Below, piece by piece: positions 16,083 through 62,641 of a stretch of 64,000 nucleotides of DNA; the first letter of the stretch is position 1, and every line of letters starts with the position of its first letter. The DNA lies in the NCBI RefSeq assembly GCF_900086705.1, contig NZ_LT575483.1:497166-561165 (forward strand), read 5' to 3'. This stretch comes from Massilibacillus massiliensis. Lineage in GTDB: Bacteria > Bacillota > Negativicutes > FLKF01. The translations under genes were made by a program, and so were the position numbers. The notes beneath the pieces were generated by a model that was given only the letters and a program-made list of their open reading frames with translations, did not search any database and was not told the origin of the DNA.

Positions 16083-17108
16083 TCACACACATAATTCAAT
16101 GATAATATTTTCCAACAAAATGCAATTCACTTGCCCAGATTTTAATTTGTAATCCGCATCGGCCAAACGAATTAAAGCATTCTTCAAAACTTTTTCATCA
16201 AAATTTCTGCTTTTAGCAATCAACTTTTCTGCAATAATGGGTACAAGTCCAACATATTCTGCAATTTTTTTACCGTTATATCCTCTTGTGGATAATGTTT
16301 TCACTTGCCACAGTTGCCTTACATGGCGACTAAACATTGTAATAATTTTAAGTGGATGTTCTCCTGCACTCAATTGTTCGGACAACAAGCTTAATGCTTT
16401 TTTTAGATTTTTATCGCTAATTGCATCCAGCATTGCAAAAATTGAAACTTCCGGAATACTCGTTAAAAGCTCCAATAAATCTTGCTTGGTAATCACTGCT
16501 TTATCCGTATACAATAAGATTTTATCTATTTCTTGATCAAGGAATCCCAATGATATGGTCTGCATTACACTTGTTACTTCTAAGAAATATTCGTAAGCAT
16601 CACGTGAAAACTGCCGATCAATTTCTTTGAGCTTTCCCTTTAACCAATCTTTTACTTCCCAAGGCTTAATCGGCAGCACTTCCACTGCACGACCATACTT
16701 CGCAATTGTTTTATATAATTTACGACGTTTGTCTGCCTTTTCAGGTGTAAACAAAATTAAAACGCTATAGGATGGCATATTCGAAAACAACTGCTGCAAA
16801 GCATCTTCTTTATGACTAGATTTTAGGGAATCCGCATTTTTTTTTCTCTCTTTTAGCAGATTCGTATTGCGAATCAAAATAACATTTCGTTCACCAAAAA
16901 AAGGAACAGCATTGATCAAATTCTCCAAAGCATCAATTTCCACATCGCCATGAAATACTTGAATTTCGTCCCGCTGGTCATTTGGCAGTAATCTATGAAT
17001 CAATGTCTTTTCTAATTTATCAGCGAGATAAGTCTCTTCTCCACTGATTAAATAAATAGGCATAATTACCCCTTGCTCAATTTCCTGCACAATTTCAAAA
17101 TAATTCAT
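16083..17108 (-). CDS. holA: DNA polymerase III subunit delta
   Basis: The delta subunit of the clamp loader, which opens the beta sliding clamp. The N-terminal region with PIYLISGEETYLADKLE, then the GERNVILIRN segment, the AAA+-like fold and the C-terminal collar domain (LSEQLSAGEHPLKIITMFSRHVRQLWQ) match HolA/YqeN. 341 aa is normal. Order comEA-comEC-holA-rpsT is as in Bacillus, here with holA transcribed convergently to rpsT. Confidence 0.94.
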   Translation of the reverse strand: MNYFEIVQEIEQGVIMPIYLISGEETYLADKLEKTLIHRLLPNDQRDEIQVFHGDVEIDALENLINAVPFFGERNVILIRNTNLLKERKKNADSLKSSHKEDALQQLFSNMPSYSVLILFTPEKADKRRKLYKTIAKYGRAVEVLPIKPWEVKDWLKGKLKEIDRQFSRDAYEYFLEVTSVMQTISLGFLDQEIDKILLYTDKAVITKQDLLELLTSIPEVSIFAMLDAISDKNLKKALSLLSEQLSAGEHPLKIITMFSRHVRQLWQVKTLSTRGYNGKKIAEYVGLVPIIAEKLIAKSRNFDEKVLKNALIRLADADYKLKSGQVNCILLENIIIELCV

Positions 17109-17138: not shown

Positions 17139-19514
17139 TTATTTTTTTATAAAAGTATCGACATCCAGACGTTGACCGTCACAAGTAAAAACAATTGCCC
17201 CTAACTGATCCGTCCTAAAAACTTTAATCTCGTTTTTAGCTAACCGCTCCAATACCTCTTTGTGAGGATGTCCAAACTTATTATTTGACCCAACGGAAAC
17301 AACCGCATAGCTAGGTGAAACCTTTTGAATAAACTCTAGCGTTGAAGATGTTTTAGACCCATGATGTCCCACTTTTAATACTGTACTTTCTATATCTTTA
17401 TCACTTTTTAAAAGTTCTTTTTCGCCATTTGCATCTAAGTCCCCTGTAATTAAAAAATTTTGTTTTCCATAGGTAAGCTTAAATACATTGGAAGCTTCAT
17501 TCCCCGTACCTGATTTATCGGCATCCATTGCTTGTAAAACTTCTACTCGTACACCATCTAATATAAAAGTCTGCCCCTGATAAGCGGATACAAACGAAGC
17601 AACTTTTTGTAAATTCGTTTTAAATACGCTTGCATACGCCTGCCGATTTTCATTTGCTACAATAATATGTTTCACTGGAAAATGTCTAAGAATCGCCGCA
17701 GCTCCACCGGCATGATCTTCATGCACATGGGTAAGCAACAGATACTCTACTTCTCTCACACCGTAATGCTTAAGATATGGAACCACAACCCTTTCACCAA
17801 CATCGAAATCGCTCAATGCCGAAAGAACGCCCCCCGTATCAATGACCATTGCCTTGCCATGTGCGGTTGTTAAAAGCATCGCATCGCCCTGTCCAACATC
17901 GATAAAATGCAATCGAATTTTTCTATCTTGCTGCCAATAAAAAAGGCCACTTATACAAAAAAGAACACCAAAAACAACGATAATAACTTTATAAACGCTT
18001 CGGTATTTCGCAATAAAATTTTTATATTTACCATGAAAGCCTGCAAAACTACAAGCTAGAATAAGATAATAAACCAAGCCGCTAAAAACACCCATGGTCG
18101 GTATATAGATAAAACCGCCAGGAATTGCTGCAATAGCACTTGTAATATAGTATACAAGGCCTATCATCATACTACAAGCAACAAATAAAAGCTTTTGTAA
18201 TATTGGAAATATACATCCCAATATTACACCAGTTAAACCTAAAATAATCATGACCTCAATGATCGGTACCGCAATAAGATTAGCCAGCAACGCACTCATA
18301 GAGACTCCATTGAAATACCACGCTAAAAAAGGTAATACACTACACTGTGCTGCAATCGTCACAGATAAATTTATTGCAATAAAACGATTCAATCGCACCA
18401 GAAAACTACCTATGATAGGCGACAAATATAATAGCCCAGCTGTCGCTGCGAACGAAAGCTGAAAACTAATATCATAGATCAGTTGGGGCTGTACCACCAA
18501 CATAATAAGCCCAACAAAGGCAAGTGCAATGCCACTGTCTTTTTCTCGCTTCAATGCAAGCGCAACAAAAGTAATAATTCCCATCGCTGCAGACCGTATG
18601 ACTGGTGGTACACAACCGGAAAACACTGCATAACCAATGATACTACTACTCACAAACATAGCTGCATATGCAGGGCGCAGCCTCAAAACACCGGCAATTT
18701 TCTGCATCGTAGCGGCTAATAATGCAATATGTGAACCCGATACAGATAAAATATGTATAATTCCCGTTGCAGTAAATGCTGCAACCAGTTCGGGCTTAAT
18801 TCCTTCATATCCGCCAAACAGCATCGCAAATAATAATGCCGCATCTTGCTTCGGCATACCATGTTCCATTGCAGTGCGTAAATTATTTCTCACGCGATCA
18901 ATCATGCGATAGAAATTATCTTTCTCATCCGCCGTTACAATAACCCCATCTTTAACGCCCTTAAATTTTGCTGTAATGCCTTGCCGTTGGAGCATAGCAA
19001 CTGTATCAATCAATCCCGGATTTTGATAACCATGCAACCCCTGCAGTTCACCGCGAACCAGCACTTTATCACCATATTGAGCAATTGGACGCTCTGGTTT
19101 TTGTGTAACTTGCACCACGACTTTTCCACTAACCGACTTCTGGTGTCGATTTGTTTCTAACGTTTCCGCTTCTACCACATAACGTATATAAATAGTTTCG
19201 CCATTCTCTTGTACACGAGGTGTGTCTACGACCCGCCCACCCATTTTACCTGACTGCCCTATCTCATGACCAATATCATTCACTCCAACTGCTAAACCAT
19301 GTATACAACGTAAAAAACCTAACAAGAAGAACAACAACAGGATGCCATAGTAAACAGACTTTTTCTCAAAATAAAGAGAAATTCCACTACTTAAAAATGA
19401 AATTGCAACAAGCCCATAAAGAATATTAAGCGGCAGATCAAAATAACCAGCACAAAAAATTCCCATAATAAATACACCCAATAAACAATTTACAAAAATA
19501 AGTGGATTTTTCAT
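17139..19514 (-). CDS. comEC: DNA uptake channel ComEC/Rec2
   Basis: ComEC forms the inner-membrane channel for single-stranded DNA in natural transformation. The 791-aa protein shows N-terminal membrane helices and an OB-like soluble domain, the central competence domain with HILSVSGSHIALL, and a C-terminal metallo-beta-lactamase domain with HVHEDHAGG and GHHGSKTSS. Full length and intact, so a working uptake channel is plausible. It begins three bases after the comEA stop and shares its promoter. Confidence 0.95.
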   Translation of the reverse strand: MKNPLIFVNCLLGVFIMGIFCAGYFDLPLNILYGLVAISFLSSGISLYFEKKSVYYGILLLFFLLGFLRCIHGLAVGVNDIGHEIGQSGKMGGRVVDTPRVQENGETIYIRYVVEAETLETNRHQKSVSGKVVVQVTQKPERPIAQYGDKVLVRGELQGLHGYQNPGLIDTVAMLQRQGITAKFKGVKDGVIVTADEKDNFYRMIDRVRNNLRTAMEHGMPKQDAALLFAMLFGGYEGIKPELVAAFTATGIIHILSVSGSHIALLAATMQKIAGVLRLRPAYAAMFVSSSIIGYAVFSGCVPPVIRSAAMGIITFVALALKREKDSGIALAFVGLIMLVVQPQLIYDISFQLSFAATAGLLYLSPIIGSFLVRLNRFIAINLSVTIAAQCSVLPFLAWYFNGVSMSALLANLIAVPIIEVMIILGLTGVILGCIFPILQKLLFVACSMMIGLVYYITSAIAAIPGGFIYIPTMGVFSGLVYYLILACSFAGFHGKYKNFIAKYRSVYKVIIVVFGVLFCISGLFYWQQDRKIRLHFIDVGQGDAMLLTTAHGKAMVIDTGGVLSALSDFDVGERVVVPYLKHYGVREVEYLLLTHVHEDHAGGAAAILRHFPVKHIIVANENRQAYASVFKTNLQKVASFVSAYQGQTFILDGVRVEVLQAMDADKSGTGNEASNVFKLTYGKQNFLITGDLDANGEKELLKSDKDIESTVLKVGHHGSKTSSTLEFIQKVSPSYAVVSVGSNNKFGHPHKEVLERLAKNEIKVFRTDQLGAIVFTCDGQRLDVDTFIKK

Positions 19515-19517
19515 CTT

Positions 19518-20099
19518 CTAAATCGTTATATGATCAGCAAGTTTCTTAAACTTTGCCTCACCAATGCCCCTGATATTTTTTAAATCTTCAATCGTCTTAA
19601 ACTGCCCTTCCGTTTTACGATACTCTATAATTGCCGCAGCTGTAGCCGGACCAACCCCCGGAAGCTTATCTAACTCCGCTTGATCTGCTGTATTAATATT
19701 AATCTTTCCTCCACTAGAAGGATTGTCTGCCCCATCCATCCCCTTTGTTTTTGTATCCATCTGCTCCAATACAAGCTTCTTTTCCGGCACATGGATTTGG
19801 CTGCCATCTGTTATCTTTTGTGCCATATTAATTTTTCCCGCATCTGCTGTCGTCAGCAAACCACCGCAAGCTTCAATCGCTTCAACAACCCTAGCACTCT
19901 GCTTTATTTTTAAAACTCCCGGTTTATTGACAGCACCGGATACATAAATTGTAATCATTTCATCAGCAACCTGTTCTTTCTTGCCGCCTCCATCTAATTC
20001 CATAACCTGATCTTTTTCATAAAATCCATACAGACTCCCTGCAATAATTACCGTCGCTAGTAATAAAAATATCCATAGAGAACGCTTATGAATCGGCAC
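19518..20099 (-). CDS. comEA: DNA receptor ComEA
   Basis: ComEA binds incoming double-stranded DNA outside the inner membrane. The protein has an N-terminal membrane anchor (residues about 8-26), a SLBB-type domain (ITIYVSGAVNKPGVL) and a C-terminal helix-hairpin-helix pair (KININTADQAELDKLPGVGPATAAAIIEYR; ranges given by motif positions about 131-160). It starts at GTG after GGGAG. A perfect sigma-H-like promoter lies 34 bases upstream. Followed at once by comEC. Confidence 0.94.
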   Translation of the reverse strand: MPIHKRSLWIFLLLATVIIAGSLYGFYEKDQVMELDGGGKKEQVADEMITIYVSGAVNKPGVLKIKQSARVVEAIEACGGLLTTADAGKINMAQKITDGSQIHVPEKKLVLEQMDTKTKGMDGADNPSSGGKININTADQAELDKLPGVGPATAAAIIEYRKTEGQFKTIEDLKNIRGIGEAKFKKLADHITI

Positions 20100-20132
20100 A
20101 GCAAATCACTCCCACACTTTCATTATCGAAAA

Positions 20133-20161
20133 TAATTCGCCATATTTTTACATTTTCCTTT
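20133..20161 (-). promoter_or_regulatory. Sigma-H-like promoter of comEA-comEC
   Basis: Minus strand AAAGGAAAA, 11 bases, GGCGAATTA: a complete match to RNAGGAWWW-N11-RNNGAATWW. The rest of the 20100-20396 gap is AT-rich; I see no gene and only weak promoter-like sequence for the plus-strand GT9 gene. Confidence 0.65.
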
Positions 20162-20396
20162 TCATTATAGAAAAATCATTCTTTTAATTTTATATTTCAT
20201 ACTTTTATCATTGATCTTGCAAATTGCAAAACTCATTCGACAAATTTATATAATATAATTGATATTCTTTCATAAGTTTGCTATCCTTAATGGTATTGTA
20301 TATTTTTATAGCAAACTTCAAATAATGAAAATATAGGAATTTTTGATTTATTAAATACAATGAAACGATAAAATAATAGAAAGCTTGGGCATATAA

Positions 20397-21440
20397 ATGT
20401 TACATAACAAACGTATTTTAATTGTCCGTTTAAGCTCCATTGGTGATGTTCTACATGCTACACCAGTTGCAAGAGCCTTGAAAGAAGCCTATCCAACCTG
20501 CCATATTACTTGGATCGTAAGTAAAACTTCAGCGAATTTACTCACAGATAATCCCTATATTGATCAAATCTACATTTGGTCTCGTGAAGAACTTGAGCAA
20601 GCCGCAGCGCACTTTCAACTCAGCCAATTACAAAAACTATGGCGACAATTAAAAGATTTTTACATACAAAATCATTTTGATATCGTCCTTGATATTCACG
20701 GACTATTTCTGAGTGGTTTTATCACTGCTTATAGCAAAGCACCAAAACGTATTGGAATGGCAAACACACGCGAACTAAATCGTTTTTTCATGACTGAACA
20801 AGCCCCAGAGCTTCTTTCAGCACACGTAATTAAACGATATTTATCCGTGCTATTACCTCTACATATCCAAACAACCGATTATCAGATGACATTATGTTTA
20901 AATGACGCTCTACATACCTTTGCTAAAGATTTTCTTCGTAGAAAAAATGTAAATCCATCAAAAAAATTACTGATGATTAATCCGAAAACAAGTTGGGAAA
21001 GTAAAAATTGGGGAAACAAAAATTTCGCTAACTTTATCAACTTGCTCTCACCAAATATTCAGATTTTACTATGCGGCAGCAAACAAGATCAACAAGATGT
21101 TGACGAAATTATAAAACGATGCAATACACCTTTATTAAATGCAGCAGGACAAACATCGTTGTTAGAACTTGCAGCTTTAATTTGTCAAACTGATTTGGTC
21201 TTGACTGGAGACACGGGAACGCTGCATATAGCAACTGCGTTGCATAAACCAACGGTCAGCCTATGGGGACCAACAAGACCAGAGCAATATGGGCCGCTCG
21301 AACCTGGTCATACGATTATACAAAGCAACCACACTTGTACAGCATGCCATAAAACAAAATGCCCTAAAAAAGACAATGTTTGTATGAAAACGATTTCACC
21401 CCAATTTGTTGCGGATAAAATTAATGCTTTGCTTTCATAG
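20397..21440 (+). CDS. Glycosyltransferase family 9 (heptosyltransferase-type)
   Basis: A WaaC/WaaF-like enzyme that would transfer an ADP-heptose-type sugar to the lipopolysaccharide core. Typical motifs are the N-terminal KRILIVRLSSIGDVLHATPV and the C-terminal donor-site region LTGDTGTLHIATAL followed by SLWGPTRPEQYGP. A cysteine pair near the end (CTACHKTKCPKKDNVC) also occurs in family members. It supports an outer membrane with LPS. The ribosome-binding site is weak, so the start is the least certain part. It is monocistronic on the plus strand. Confidence 0.88.
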   Translation: MLHNKRILIVRLSSIGDVLHATPVARALKEAYPTCHITWIVSKTSANLLTDNPYIDQIYIWSREELEQAAAHFQLSQLQKLWRQLKDFYIQNHFDIVLDIHGLFLSGFITAYSKAPKRIGMANTRELNRFFMTEQAPELLSAHVIKRYLSVLLPLHIQTTDYQMTLCLNDALHTFAKDFLRRKNVNPSKKLLMINPKTSWESKNWGNKNFANFINLLSPNIQILLCGSKQDQQDVDEIIKRCNTPLLNAAGQTSLLELAALICQTDLVLTGDTGTLHIATALHKPTVSLWGPTRPEQYGPLEPGHTIIQSNHTCTACHKTKCPKKDNVCMKTISPQFVADKINALLS

Positions 21441-32808: not shown

Positions 32809-32837
32809 AAATTCGCTAAATTTTATGAATTTCCTGC
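32809..32837 (-). promoter_or_regulatory. Sigma-H-like promoter of the yqeK operon
   Basis: Minus strand GCAGGAAAT, 11 bases, AGCGAATTT: a complete consensus match, giving a leader of about 15 to 20 bases before the yqeK start. Confidence 0.65.
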
Positions 32838-35464: not shown

Positions 35465-36592
35465 TTAAACCATTAATACCATATTATCACGATGAATCAC
35501 TTCATCATAGTACTTTTCGCCTAAAATACCCGAAAAATCTTTTGTACTTTTTCCAATAATTTTCTGCAATTGCTCTGTATCATAGTTTACAATACCGCGC
35601 GCAATCTCACGCCCCTGGCTAGATAAGACACGAACTGTACTTCCTTTGTCAAAATTCCCCTCAACAGAAAAAATTCCTGCCGCGAGTAAACTTGAGCCAT
35701 CTTGTAGCATCGCTGTTTCACAACCTTCATCAACAAAGATAACTCCAGCTATCCTCGTACCAAAAGCCAACCAGCTTTTTCTGACTTTCAAATGACATTC
35801 CTTCGCAGGAAATATCGTGCCAAATGTTTTACCATTTAAGATATCACGTACTATACCATCACGATCTCCTGCAGCAATCACCATTGTTACTCCAGCGTTC
35901 ACCGCTATTTTTGCCGCTTGAATTTTAGTAAACATACCACCTGTACCAAGTTTTGATCCCGCTCCACCCGCCAAAGATTCAATTTCCGGCGTAATTTCAT
36001 TGATTTCTAAAATTAATTCAGCTGCTGGATCGATCTGTGGATTGGCTGTATATACGCCCTCAATATCGGATAGAATCACCAGTAAATCCGCGTCAATCAG
36101 TGTCGCTACCGTCGCTGATAACGTATCGTTATCCCCAATCTTCAACTCATCGACTGCTATGGCATCATTTTCATTGATTACAGGAATAACACCCATCTTT
36201 AACAAAGTCAATAAAGCATTGCGTGAATTTATGTATTGCTTGTGCTTTACAGAATTCTCACGTGTCAATAATACTTGTGCAACCGTTTGCCCATACTCAC
36301 CAAATAACTTTTCATACATATGCATCAGTATGCCTTGCCCCACAGCAGCCATTGCCTGTTTTTCCGGAATTGTTTTTGGTTTTTCTTTTAACCCTAAACG
36401 ATCCACACCGGCACCGACAGCACCAGAAGTGACCAAAATGATCTCTTTGCCTTGATTCGCTAAATCCGATAATTCTCGAACTAATTTTTCGATGCGGAAA
36501 AAATCTAATTTTCCTGTATCATGTGTTAAGGTGCTTGTCCCTACTTTAACGACGATTCTTTGTGCATGTATCAAATTTTTTCTCGTATCCAT
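35465..36592 (-). CDS. proB: Glutamate 5-kinase
   Basis: ProB phosphorylates glutamate at the start of proline synthesis. The amino-acid-kinase domain shows VVKVGTSTLT, VTSGAVGAGVDRLGL, INENDAIAVDELKIGDNDTLSA and GTGGMFTKIQAAKIA; a C-terminal PUA domain follows (RKSWLAFG onwards). Two in-frame ATGs exist; the first overlaps the GGAGG site, so the second (36592, MDTRKN) is chosen. Next to proA. Confidence 0.97.
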   Translation of the reverse strand: MDTRKNLIHAQRIVVKVGTSTLTHDTGKLDFFRIEKLVRELSDLANQGKEIILVTSGAVGAGVDRLGLKEKPKTIPEKQAMAAVGQGILMHMYEKLFGEYGQTVAQVLLTRENSVKHKQYINSRNALLTLLKMGVIPVINENDAIAVDELKIGDNDTLSATVATLIDADLLVILSDIEGVYTANPQIDPAAELILEINEITPEIESLAGGAGSKLGTGGMFTKIQAAKIAVNAGVTMVIAAGDRDGIVRDILNGKTFGTIFPAKECHLKVRKSWLAFGTRIAGVIFVDEGCETAMLQDGSSLLAAGIFSVEGNFDKGSTVRVLSSQGREIARGIVNYDTEQLQKIIGKSTKDFSGILGEKYYDEVIHRDNMVLMV

Positions 36593-51062: not shown

Positions 51063-51988
51063 TTTGAACCTCCGGCACTTTTGGTTAATGAAGCATTATC
51101 ACTTTCAACTGTTGCAGGCTGCTGCGTAAGTGGCTCTGGCGGTGTTTCACGCGATGTAACAATTACAGAAACTTCTTCCAAACGTTGAAAATCCACAGTT
51201 GTCTTTAAAATAGCACATTTCAATAGACCGCCTTCATCATTGACAATAGATTCCACATCACCAATTGAGATTCCTTTAGGATAAATTCCACCAAAACCAG
51301 ACGTAACAATTTTATCCCCTTCCACGATATCTGCATCGCGTGGAACATTGATCATTCGAACCATCATTTGCTTTTTATTGTCACCTGCTATAATTCCGGC
51401 AACTCTGGATTCCGCCCTCTGCACCAAACCGCCAACAGAACTTCGCGGATCTAAGATTAGCTGTACTCTCGCAGAACCTTTCACTACGCTTACAACATTA
51501 CCGACAAGCCCTTGTGGGGTGATTACCGCCATGTCTTTTTGAATTCCATCATCCTGCCCTTTGTTAATCACAATGGTACTAGTCCAGTTGCTAGGATCAC
51601 GTGCAATCACCTTTGCCGCAACCAAATCAAATTGATTTGCAGCTTGTTTATACCCCAACATACTTCGCAATCGATCATTTTCCGCTGTAACCTCAGCAAT
51701 ATTGACTTGCATTTCTCTCAGTTGCTCAATCTCAGACTGCAGCATTTTGTTTTGCTGATAAACGGTAGCAATTTCCCAAACAGCACTGGTTCCTTGACGA
51801 ACCATACTGCTGACATGATTCATAATTCCTTGAAAAGGTGCCAAAACAGTCATTGTCACCTTTTCACTAATCGGTAATTGATATTTCCCCTTTGCCGTTC
51901 CAAAAAGCAAGATAAGAATAAACACAAATACCGCAATCAAGATATATATTTTTTTATTTGAGCTCGGTTCTCTTCTTACTCTGCTCAT
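51059..51988 (-). CDS. mreC: Rod shape-determining protein MreC
   Basis: MreC is a bitopic protein linking MreB to the periplasmic synthesis machinery. Residues about 15-33 form the membrane segment, 60-105 a coiled coil (QNKMLQSEIEQLREMQ), and the rest the beta-barrel domain with VAAKVIARDPSNW, ITPQGLVGNVV and VTSGFGGIYPKGISIG. 309 aa. Its ATG overlaps the mreB stop (TAATG). Confidence 0.95.
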   Translation of the reverse strand: MSRVRREPSSNKKIYILIAVFVFILILLFGTAKGKYQLPISEKVTMTVLAPFQGIMNHVSSMVRQGTSAVWEIATVYQQNKMLQSEIEQLREMQVNIAEVTAENDRLRSMLGYKQAANQFDLVAAKVIARDPSNWTSTIVINKGQDDGIQKDMAVITPQGLVGNVVSVVKGSARVQLILDPRSSVGGLVQRAESRVAGIIAGDNKKQMMVRMINVPRDADIVEGDKIVTSGFGGIYPKGISIGDVESIVNDEGGLLKCAILKTTVDFQRLEEVSVIVTSRETPPEPLTQQPATVESDNASLTKSAGGSK

Positions 51989-54696: not shown

Positions 54697-54725
54697 AAAT
54701 TCTACTTAAATAAAAAAAATCCTTG
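54697..54725 (-). promoter_or_regulatory. Sigma-H-like promoter upstream of DUF4321-maf-radC-mre
   Basis: Minus strand CAAGGATTT, 11 bases, GTAGAATTT. Only the first -35 base (C for R) is off. The rest of the 54636-55094 gap is very AT-rich with no gene seen, apart from the terminator at 55005-55043. Confidence 0.5.
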
Positions 54726-62612: not shown

Positions 62613-62641
62613 AAATTCTCTGTATTTTGATAAATTCCTGC
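62613..62641 (-). promoter_or_regulatory. Sigma-H-like promoter between rex and the CoA-transferase gene
   Basis: Minus strand GCAGGAATT, 11 bases, AGAGAATTT: a full consensus match. Transcripts would begin about 20 bases before the structured element at 62493-62585 and could continue into the propionate operon. Confidence 0.6.

Follow-up and report, generated by a model that had tools for sequence, protein, structure and literature searches.

A conserved sigma-H-type promoter element precedes the DNA-uptake genes comEA and comEC in the Negativicutes genome of Massilibacillus massiliensis

We have found that the DNA-uptake genes comEA and comEC of Massilibacillus massiliensis are preceded by a sigma-H-type promoter element that matches the consensus in full, and that a site of this kind recurs in the comEA leaders of many members of the class Negativicutes that encode the sporulation protein SpoIVA. 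It is highly probable that this element, which runs from 20161 to 20135 on the minus strand, is the promoter of comEA-comEC(-holA) and is recognized by the SigH form of RNA polymerase, and that other parts of the uptake machinery are switched by SigH as well.

RESULTS

A consensus sigma-H-type element ahead of comEA

The window, that is, the whole 64,000-nt stretch of DNA that was analysed, corresponds to positions 497166 to 561165 of contig C6 of the M. massiliensis genome (G000), a 4.0-Mb Negativicutes genome whose closest named relative, judged by ComEA, is a Massilibacillus metagenome-assembled genome (MAG) with 63 to 66% identity. The features of the comEA region are as follows.

20135..20161, minus strand: sigma-H-type promoter core (-35, spacer and -10), perfect consensus score of 21 out of 21
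20161-20153, minus strand: -35 element AAAGGAAAA, which fits RNAGGAWWW
20152-20142, minus strand: spacer TGTAAAAATAT, 11 nt
20141-20135, minus strand: -10 element GGCGAAT, which fits RNNGAAT, with TA directly after it
20109..20113, minus strand: GGGAG, a Shine-Dalgarno-like stretch before comEA, read from the sequence
19518..20099, minus strand: comEA, 193 aa, GTG start at 20099, SLBB and HHH_3 domains (helix-hairpin-helix DNA receptor), intact
17139..19514, minus strand: comEC, 791 aa, DUF4131, Competence and Lactamase_B (metallo-beta-lactamase) domains, intact
16083..17108, minus strand: holA (DNA polymerase III delta), 30 nt behind comEC
20397..21440, plus strand: glycosyltransferase family 9 (heptosyltransferase) gene, a divergent neighbour outside the comEA operon

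The AGGA-to-GAAT spacing is 17 nt, inside the 17- to 18-nt range of sigma-H promoters, a spacing rule that is also found in PMC12456013. The B. subtilis consensus and the matrix used for scoring match the motifs given in PMC12456013 and PMC4754846. The sequence-only reading had reported a full sigma-H consensus match 34 bases before comEA and had described both com genes as intact. The full match was confirmed, both elements being perfect and conserved in relatives, and the domains of ComEA and ComEC are complete; the gap to the GTG codon is 35 nt when counted from the T of GAAT and 33 nt when counted from GGCGAATTA. From its sequence, GGGAG is the likely ribosome-binding site of comEA, and holA is probably cotranscribed with comEC, an operon structure suggested by the spacing.

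The genome encodes SpoIVA, and gpr and spoIIP lie within the window; the organism is therefore equipped to sporulate. Its SigH protein scored 376 bits against TIGR02859, which is over the cutoff. The presence of two secretins, together with the heptosyltransferase-like gene adjoining comEA, fits a diderm envelope.

When the 115 nt upstream were dinucleotide shuffled 5,000 times, 5 of the shuffled sequences contained a perfect site; the counts per 5,000 were 16 for 170 nt and 14 for 300 nt. Given these frequencies, a lone perfect match is uncommon but not decisive, and conservation is the stronger evidence. The whole window contains five perfect sites, compared with a shuffle mean of 0.5 and a maximum of 2. 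Further minus-strand sites in the window with scores of 20 to 21 are located at 908-935, 32811-32837, 35654-35680, 51250-51277, 54699-54725, and 62615-62641, and the genes behind further window sites include NfeD, HD-domain, and DUF4321 genes.

Conservation of the element in comEA leaders

A search of 100 class members recovered ComEA in 98, and 97 leaders were scanned, one contig being too short. With a minimum score of 19 out of 21 in the region from -115 to -20, a site was present in 27 of the 39 leaders from SpoIVA-positive genomes (12 of 16 families; shuffle expectation, 0.72), compared with 9 of the 58 leaders from SpoIVA-negative genomes (shuffle expectation, 0.66), a count that excludes three terminator-flagged matches and may be nearer 8 of 58, because one doubtful match (G091, family f25, score of 19) escaped the flag. 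The association with SpoIVA gave a P value of 1e-7 in Fisher's test, uncorrected for relatedness. In a wider leader region, 40 of the 97 leaders had a site, and three control readings of these leaders gave 7, 5, and 2. The sites lie mostly about 30 to 45 nt ahead of the comEA start, and their spacer sequences vary among families.

Leader matches of the form GCAGGAGTT in families f11 (Selenomonadaceae by named records) and f25 were rejected as the 3' arm of the intrinsic terminator of the upstream gene and were left out of the SpoIVA-negative count. In these leaders (L033, L034, and L037 to L041 in f11; L102 to L105, for example, in f25), CGAA or GGGAA follows GCAGGAGTT at promoter distance, so the terminator may serve in addition as a -35 element, or the match may reflect chance.

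A site scoring at least 19 was absent from 12 of the 39 SpoIVA-positive leaders, some of which (those of family f26, for example) score 18 at the same place, and comEA sites were absent from families f4, f6, f8, f10, f12, f22, f27, f28, and f29, among others. SigH scored over the cutoff in 88 of the 100 class members, most non-spore-formers included; loss of the comEA site is therefore not explained by loss of the SigH gene. The idea that non-spore-formers best retain the link to com genes, as in the Bacilli, did not hold for this class.

Among named records, 52 of 80 ComEA loci were scanned, the remaining 28 being mostly Selenomonas and Veillonellaceae MAGs. In these 52 loci, the site was present in Sporomusa ovata, Sporomusa silvacetica, and Sporomusa sp. 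KB1, at -34 or -35, and also in two Propionispira, a Propionispora, a Megamonas, and the Massilibacillus MAG. Outside the class, it was found in 9 of 11 Desulfosporosinus loci and in one Peptococcaceae MAG. It was absent from all four Clostridioides difficile loci, all three Pectinatus loci, Carboxydothermus islandicus, four Clostridia MAGs, and nine loci of Actinomycetota, Chloroflexota, Planctomycetota, and Caldiserica. SigH of C. difficile was reportedly the subject of a study by Saujet in 2011.

Sites ahead of other DNA-uptake operons

The recD2-comFC operon of M. massiliensis has a site, GCAGGACTT-N11-ATGGAAT, 43 nt before recD2 that is off at one W position; AGGACTT is the -35 element of one Listeria SigH promoter as well (PMC4754846). 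RecD2 matches were obtained in 93 genomes, and the 30 that scored best were scanned: 20 of these leaders had a site scoring at least 19, versus 0, 4, and 0 in the control readings, and ComFC was encoded downstream of recD2 in all 30 loci. At pilP-pilQ of M. massiliensis, a perfect site, ACAGGATTT-N11-ATAGAAT, stands 40 nt ahead of the first gene, whose product is weakly PilP-like (PF04351, E value of 0.041, below the cutoff); this gene overlaps the secretin gene, whose product has PilQ proteins (outer-membrane secretins) as its best solved matches (E value of 6e-45).

The pilB leaders were surveyed in 39 of 92 genomes, hand-chosen for spread over families, and the site was present in 11 of 18 SpoIVA-positive genomes (0.47 expected) and 2 of 21 SpoIVA-negative genomes (0.56 expected). 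No SigH-type site was found at the pilB type IV pilus operon of M. massiliensis itself, so that this operon is not supported as a SigH target; the perfect site near it, at C6:206586, serves a gene for a 209-aa protein that has no Pfam match. Likewise, there was no SigH-type site in the surroundings of dprA in this genome. A second secretin gene clusters with a T2SSE ATPase gene apart from the type IV pilus operon (C6:1586000-1600123; L208 and L361), perhaps representing a Tad-type pilus.

Genome-wide distribution of SigH-type sites

The M. massiliensis genome has 107 consensus matches, compared with 26 when the pattern was reversed and 67 when the spacer was four bases too long, which indicates that the count is part base composition and part signal. 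About 102 sites were listed and 77 were examined, partly picked for AT-rich spacers; 55 of the 77, a rate biased by that choice, were intergenic and lay upstream of a gene in the same orientation. When 50 proteins encoded behind such sites were scanned with Pfam, the genes identified included spo0A, a STAS/SpoIIAA-like gene, spoVS, ftsK/spoIIIE, dnaG (with sigA next to it), and many metabolic genes. The SigH targets of B. subtilis include spo0A, spoIIA, spoVS, and dnaG-sigA. There are two tandem consensus sites ahead of dnaG, at C6:482369 and 482435, which are 66 nt apart; dnaG-rpoD is SigH dependent in Listeria too (PMC4754846).

Across the class, the median ratio of right-spacing to wrong-spacing sites was 2.43 in the 41 SpoIVA-positive genomes and 1.5 in the 59 SpoIVA-negative genomes. 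Several non-sporulating families (f4, f15, f25, and f28) have kept the SigH gene, yet right-spacing sites are hardly in excess in them, and their SigH proteins may read a different sequence.

DISCUSSION

It is possible, if somewhat doubtful, that SigH in the Negativicutes is a broad, near-general sigma factor for growth and energy metabolism and that the com genes, among several hundred targets, are simply expressed in the ordinary way, with no competence state involved. Transcription start site (TSS) mapping in Sporomusa sphaeroides KIAC identified 322 TSSs with AGGA/GAAT SigH motifs and 17- to 18-nt spacers, including those of acetogenesis genes, and SigH motifs made up 16% of the sigma motifs at mapped starts (PMC12456013); a SigH promoter alone is therefore not a marker of a competence program. 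The M. massiliensis sites before the genes for phosphoenolpyruvate carboxykinase (PEPCK), Glu-tRNA ligase, transporters, and Hfq, and the total of 7,127 right-spacing versus 3,524 wrong-spacing sites over the 100 genomes, are likewise what a broad regulon would produce; however, the element is found at several distinct DNA-uptake operons, and its position is conserved across families whose spacers differ.

A further explanation, which we regard as unlikely, is that the DNA-uptake genes are turned on at entry into sporulation for ends other than transformation, such as feeding on DNA, chromosome repair ahead of sporulation, or attachment by means of the pilus. The site tracks SpoIVA in both the comEA and the pilB leaders, RecD2 is a repair helicase encoded in the comF operon, and comM is broken in the M. 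massiliensis genome, all of which would suit such a role. Against it, transformation is the best-known role of comEA, comEC, and comFC, and Veillonella parvula, a member of the same class, is naturally competent and transformable (PMC5397411); the text of that paper contains none of the terms comEA, sigma, or pilQ.

Only residues 342 to 505 of the 506 residues of ComM remain, about the first 340 codons having been lost. The remnant (L205:10880-12324; C6, about 203880-205324) lies beside an HTH gene and an N-terminal resolvase fragment and looks as if it had been cut by a mobile element; pilB adjoins it, and aroE is missing from between pilB and comM. PilB itself has no MshEN domain, unlike PilB of the relative G016, but family f15, among others, often has PilB in a short form, and loss of the domain is thus not necessarily fatal. 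The sequence-only reading had proposed a sigma-H route for transformation. The presence of DNA-uptake genes under a conserved SigH-type promoter holds, but the reference to transformation goes too far, because comM is truncated, PilB lacks MshEN, and no site was found at the organism's own pilB operon or dprA; the wording that the evidence supports is "DNA-uptake genes under a SigH-type promoter."

It is very improbable that the match arose by chance or belongs to another factor, with comEA transcribed from a SigA promoter instead. About 0.5 perfect sites are expected by chance per 64 kb, and a TATAAT does lie upstream, at 20169-20164 on the minus strand, but it has no usable -35 element (2 of 6 matches to the hexamer at 17-nt spacing) and is absent from the nearest relative, G001. 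A scan of 19400-20500 gave no sigma-70-type site on the minus strand; this result and the missing -35 element led us to reject SigA as the comEA driver. In addition, the SigH element is conserved class-wide.

Returning to SigH as the reader of the comEA promoter, it can be envisioned that when SigH (Spo0H) becomes active, as at entry into stationary phase or sporulation, the ComEA receptor and the ComEC channel are made. SigH-RNA polymerase would start about seven bases behind GAAT, yielding a short leader with the GGGAG ribosome site and then the comEA-comEC(-holA) transcript. SigH would also switch on recD2-comFC and pilP-pilQ in this organism and, in many relatives, the pilB type IV pilus operon. 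Since spo0A and the SpoIIAA-like gene would be under SigH too, the uptake of DNA and the decision to sporulate may share a trigger. We consider the promoter assignment to be well supported; from the element, its position and conservation, the existence of a SigH gene, and the surrounding regulon, we infer transcription, its dependence on SigH, its timing, and transformation as a possible outcome, and with them the physiology.

Overall, the arrangement looks like the SigH competence regulon known from the Bacilli, kept here in diderm spore-formers with pilus and secretin operons included, and its occurrence in many spore-forming relatives suggests that sporulation and DNA uptake have long been linked. 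A tentative scenario is that in early spore-forming Bacillota a single SigH governed both sporulation entry and DNA uptake, that diderms added the pilus and PilQ, and that the link was kept in sporulating Negativicutes and in Desulfosporosinus and was mostly lost together with sporulation in the class; the ComK of Bacillus and the ComX of streptococci would then be later rewirings.

Published work so far covers SigH in competence in non-sporulating Bacilli and SigH in sporulation in Bacillus, and the literature frames competence as a role of SigH in non-sporulating Firmicutes (PMC3486894, PMC3364868). A limited literature search found no paper that places the com genes of Negativicutes under SigH; "comE" does not occur in the accessible main text of the S. 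sphaeroides paper, in which competence is cited only for Listeria and Lactobacillus sakei (PMC12456013). If our reading is correct, the SigH element ahead of comEA, comFC, and pilus operons would unite both roles in one spore-forming diderm, would allow DNA uptake to be induced directly in acetogens and other Negativicutes in which manipulation is difficult, and would make the origin of competence control in the Bacillota testable.

The comEA locus of B. subtilis has the same gene order (comEA, comEC, holA, gpr, spoIIP, lepA), but the driver of its comE operon is ComK with SigA. The sequence-only reading had stated that SigH drives com genes in Staphylococcus aureus; SigH drives com operons there, including comE (PMC3486894), and the same is true of L. 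sakei (PMC3364868); unlike M. massiliensis, both are non-spore-formers, and their SigH proteins are very divergent. The comEABC, comG, and coiA promoters of Listeria monocytogenes are SigH dependent, and its comEA operon likewise stands behind AGGA/GAAT with an 11-nt spacer, the site being 22 nt from the gene (PMC4754846). However, Listeria is a monoderm non-spore-former with a comG pseudopilus and no secretin, and its promoters were reported from RNA-seq (PMC4754846), whereas the Massilibacillus promoter is predicted from sequence. S. sphaeroides KIAC belongs to the same class as M. massiliensis and shares the motif and its spacing, and its large SigH regulon has mapped starts (PMC12456013).
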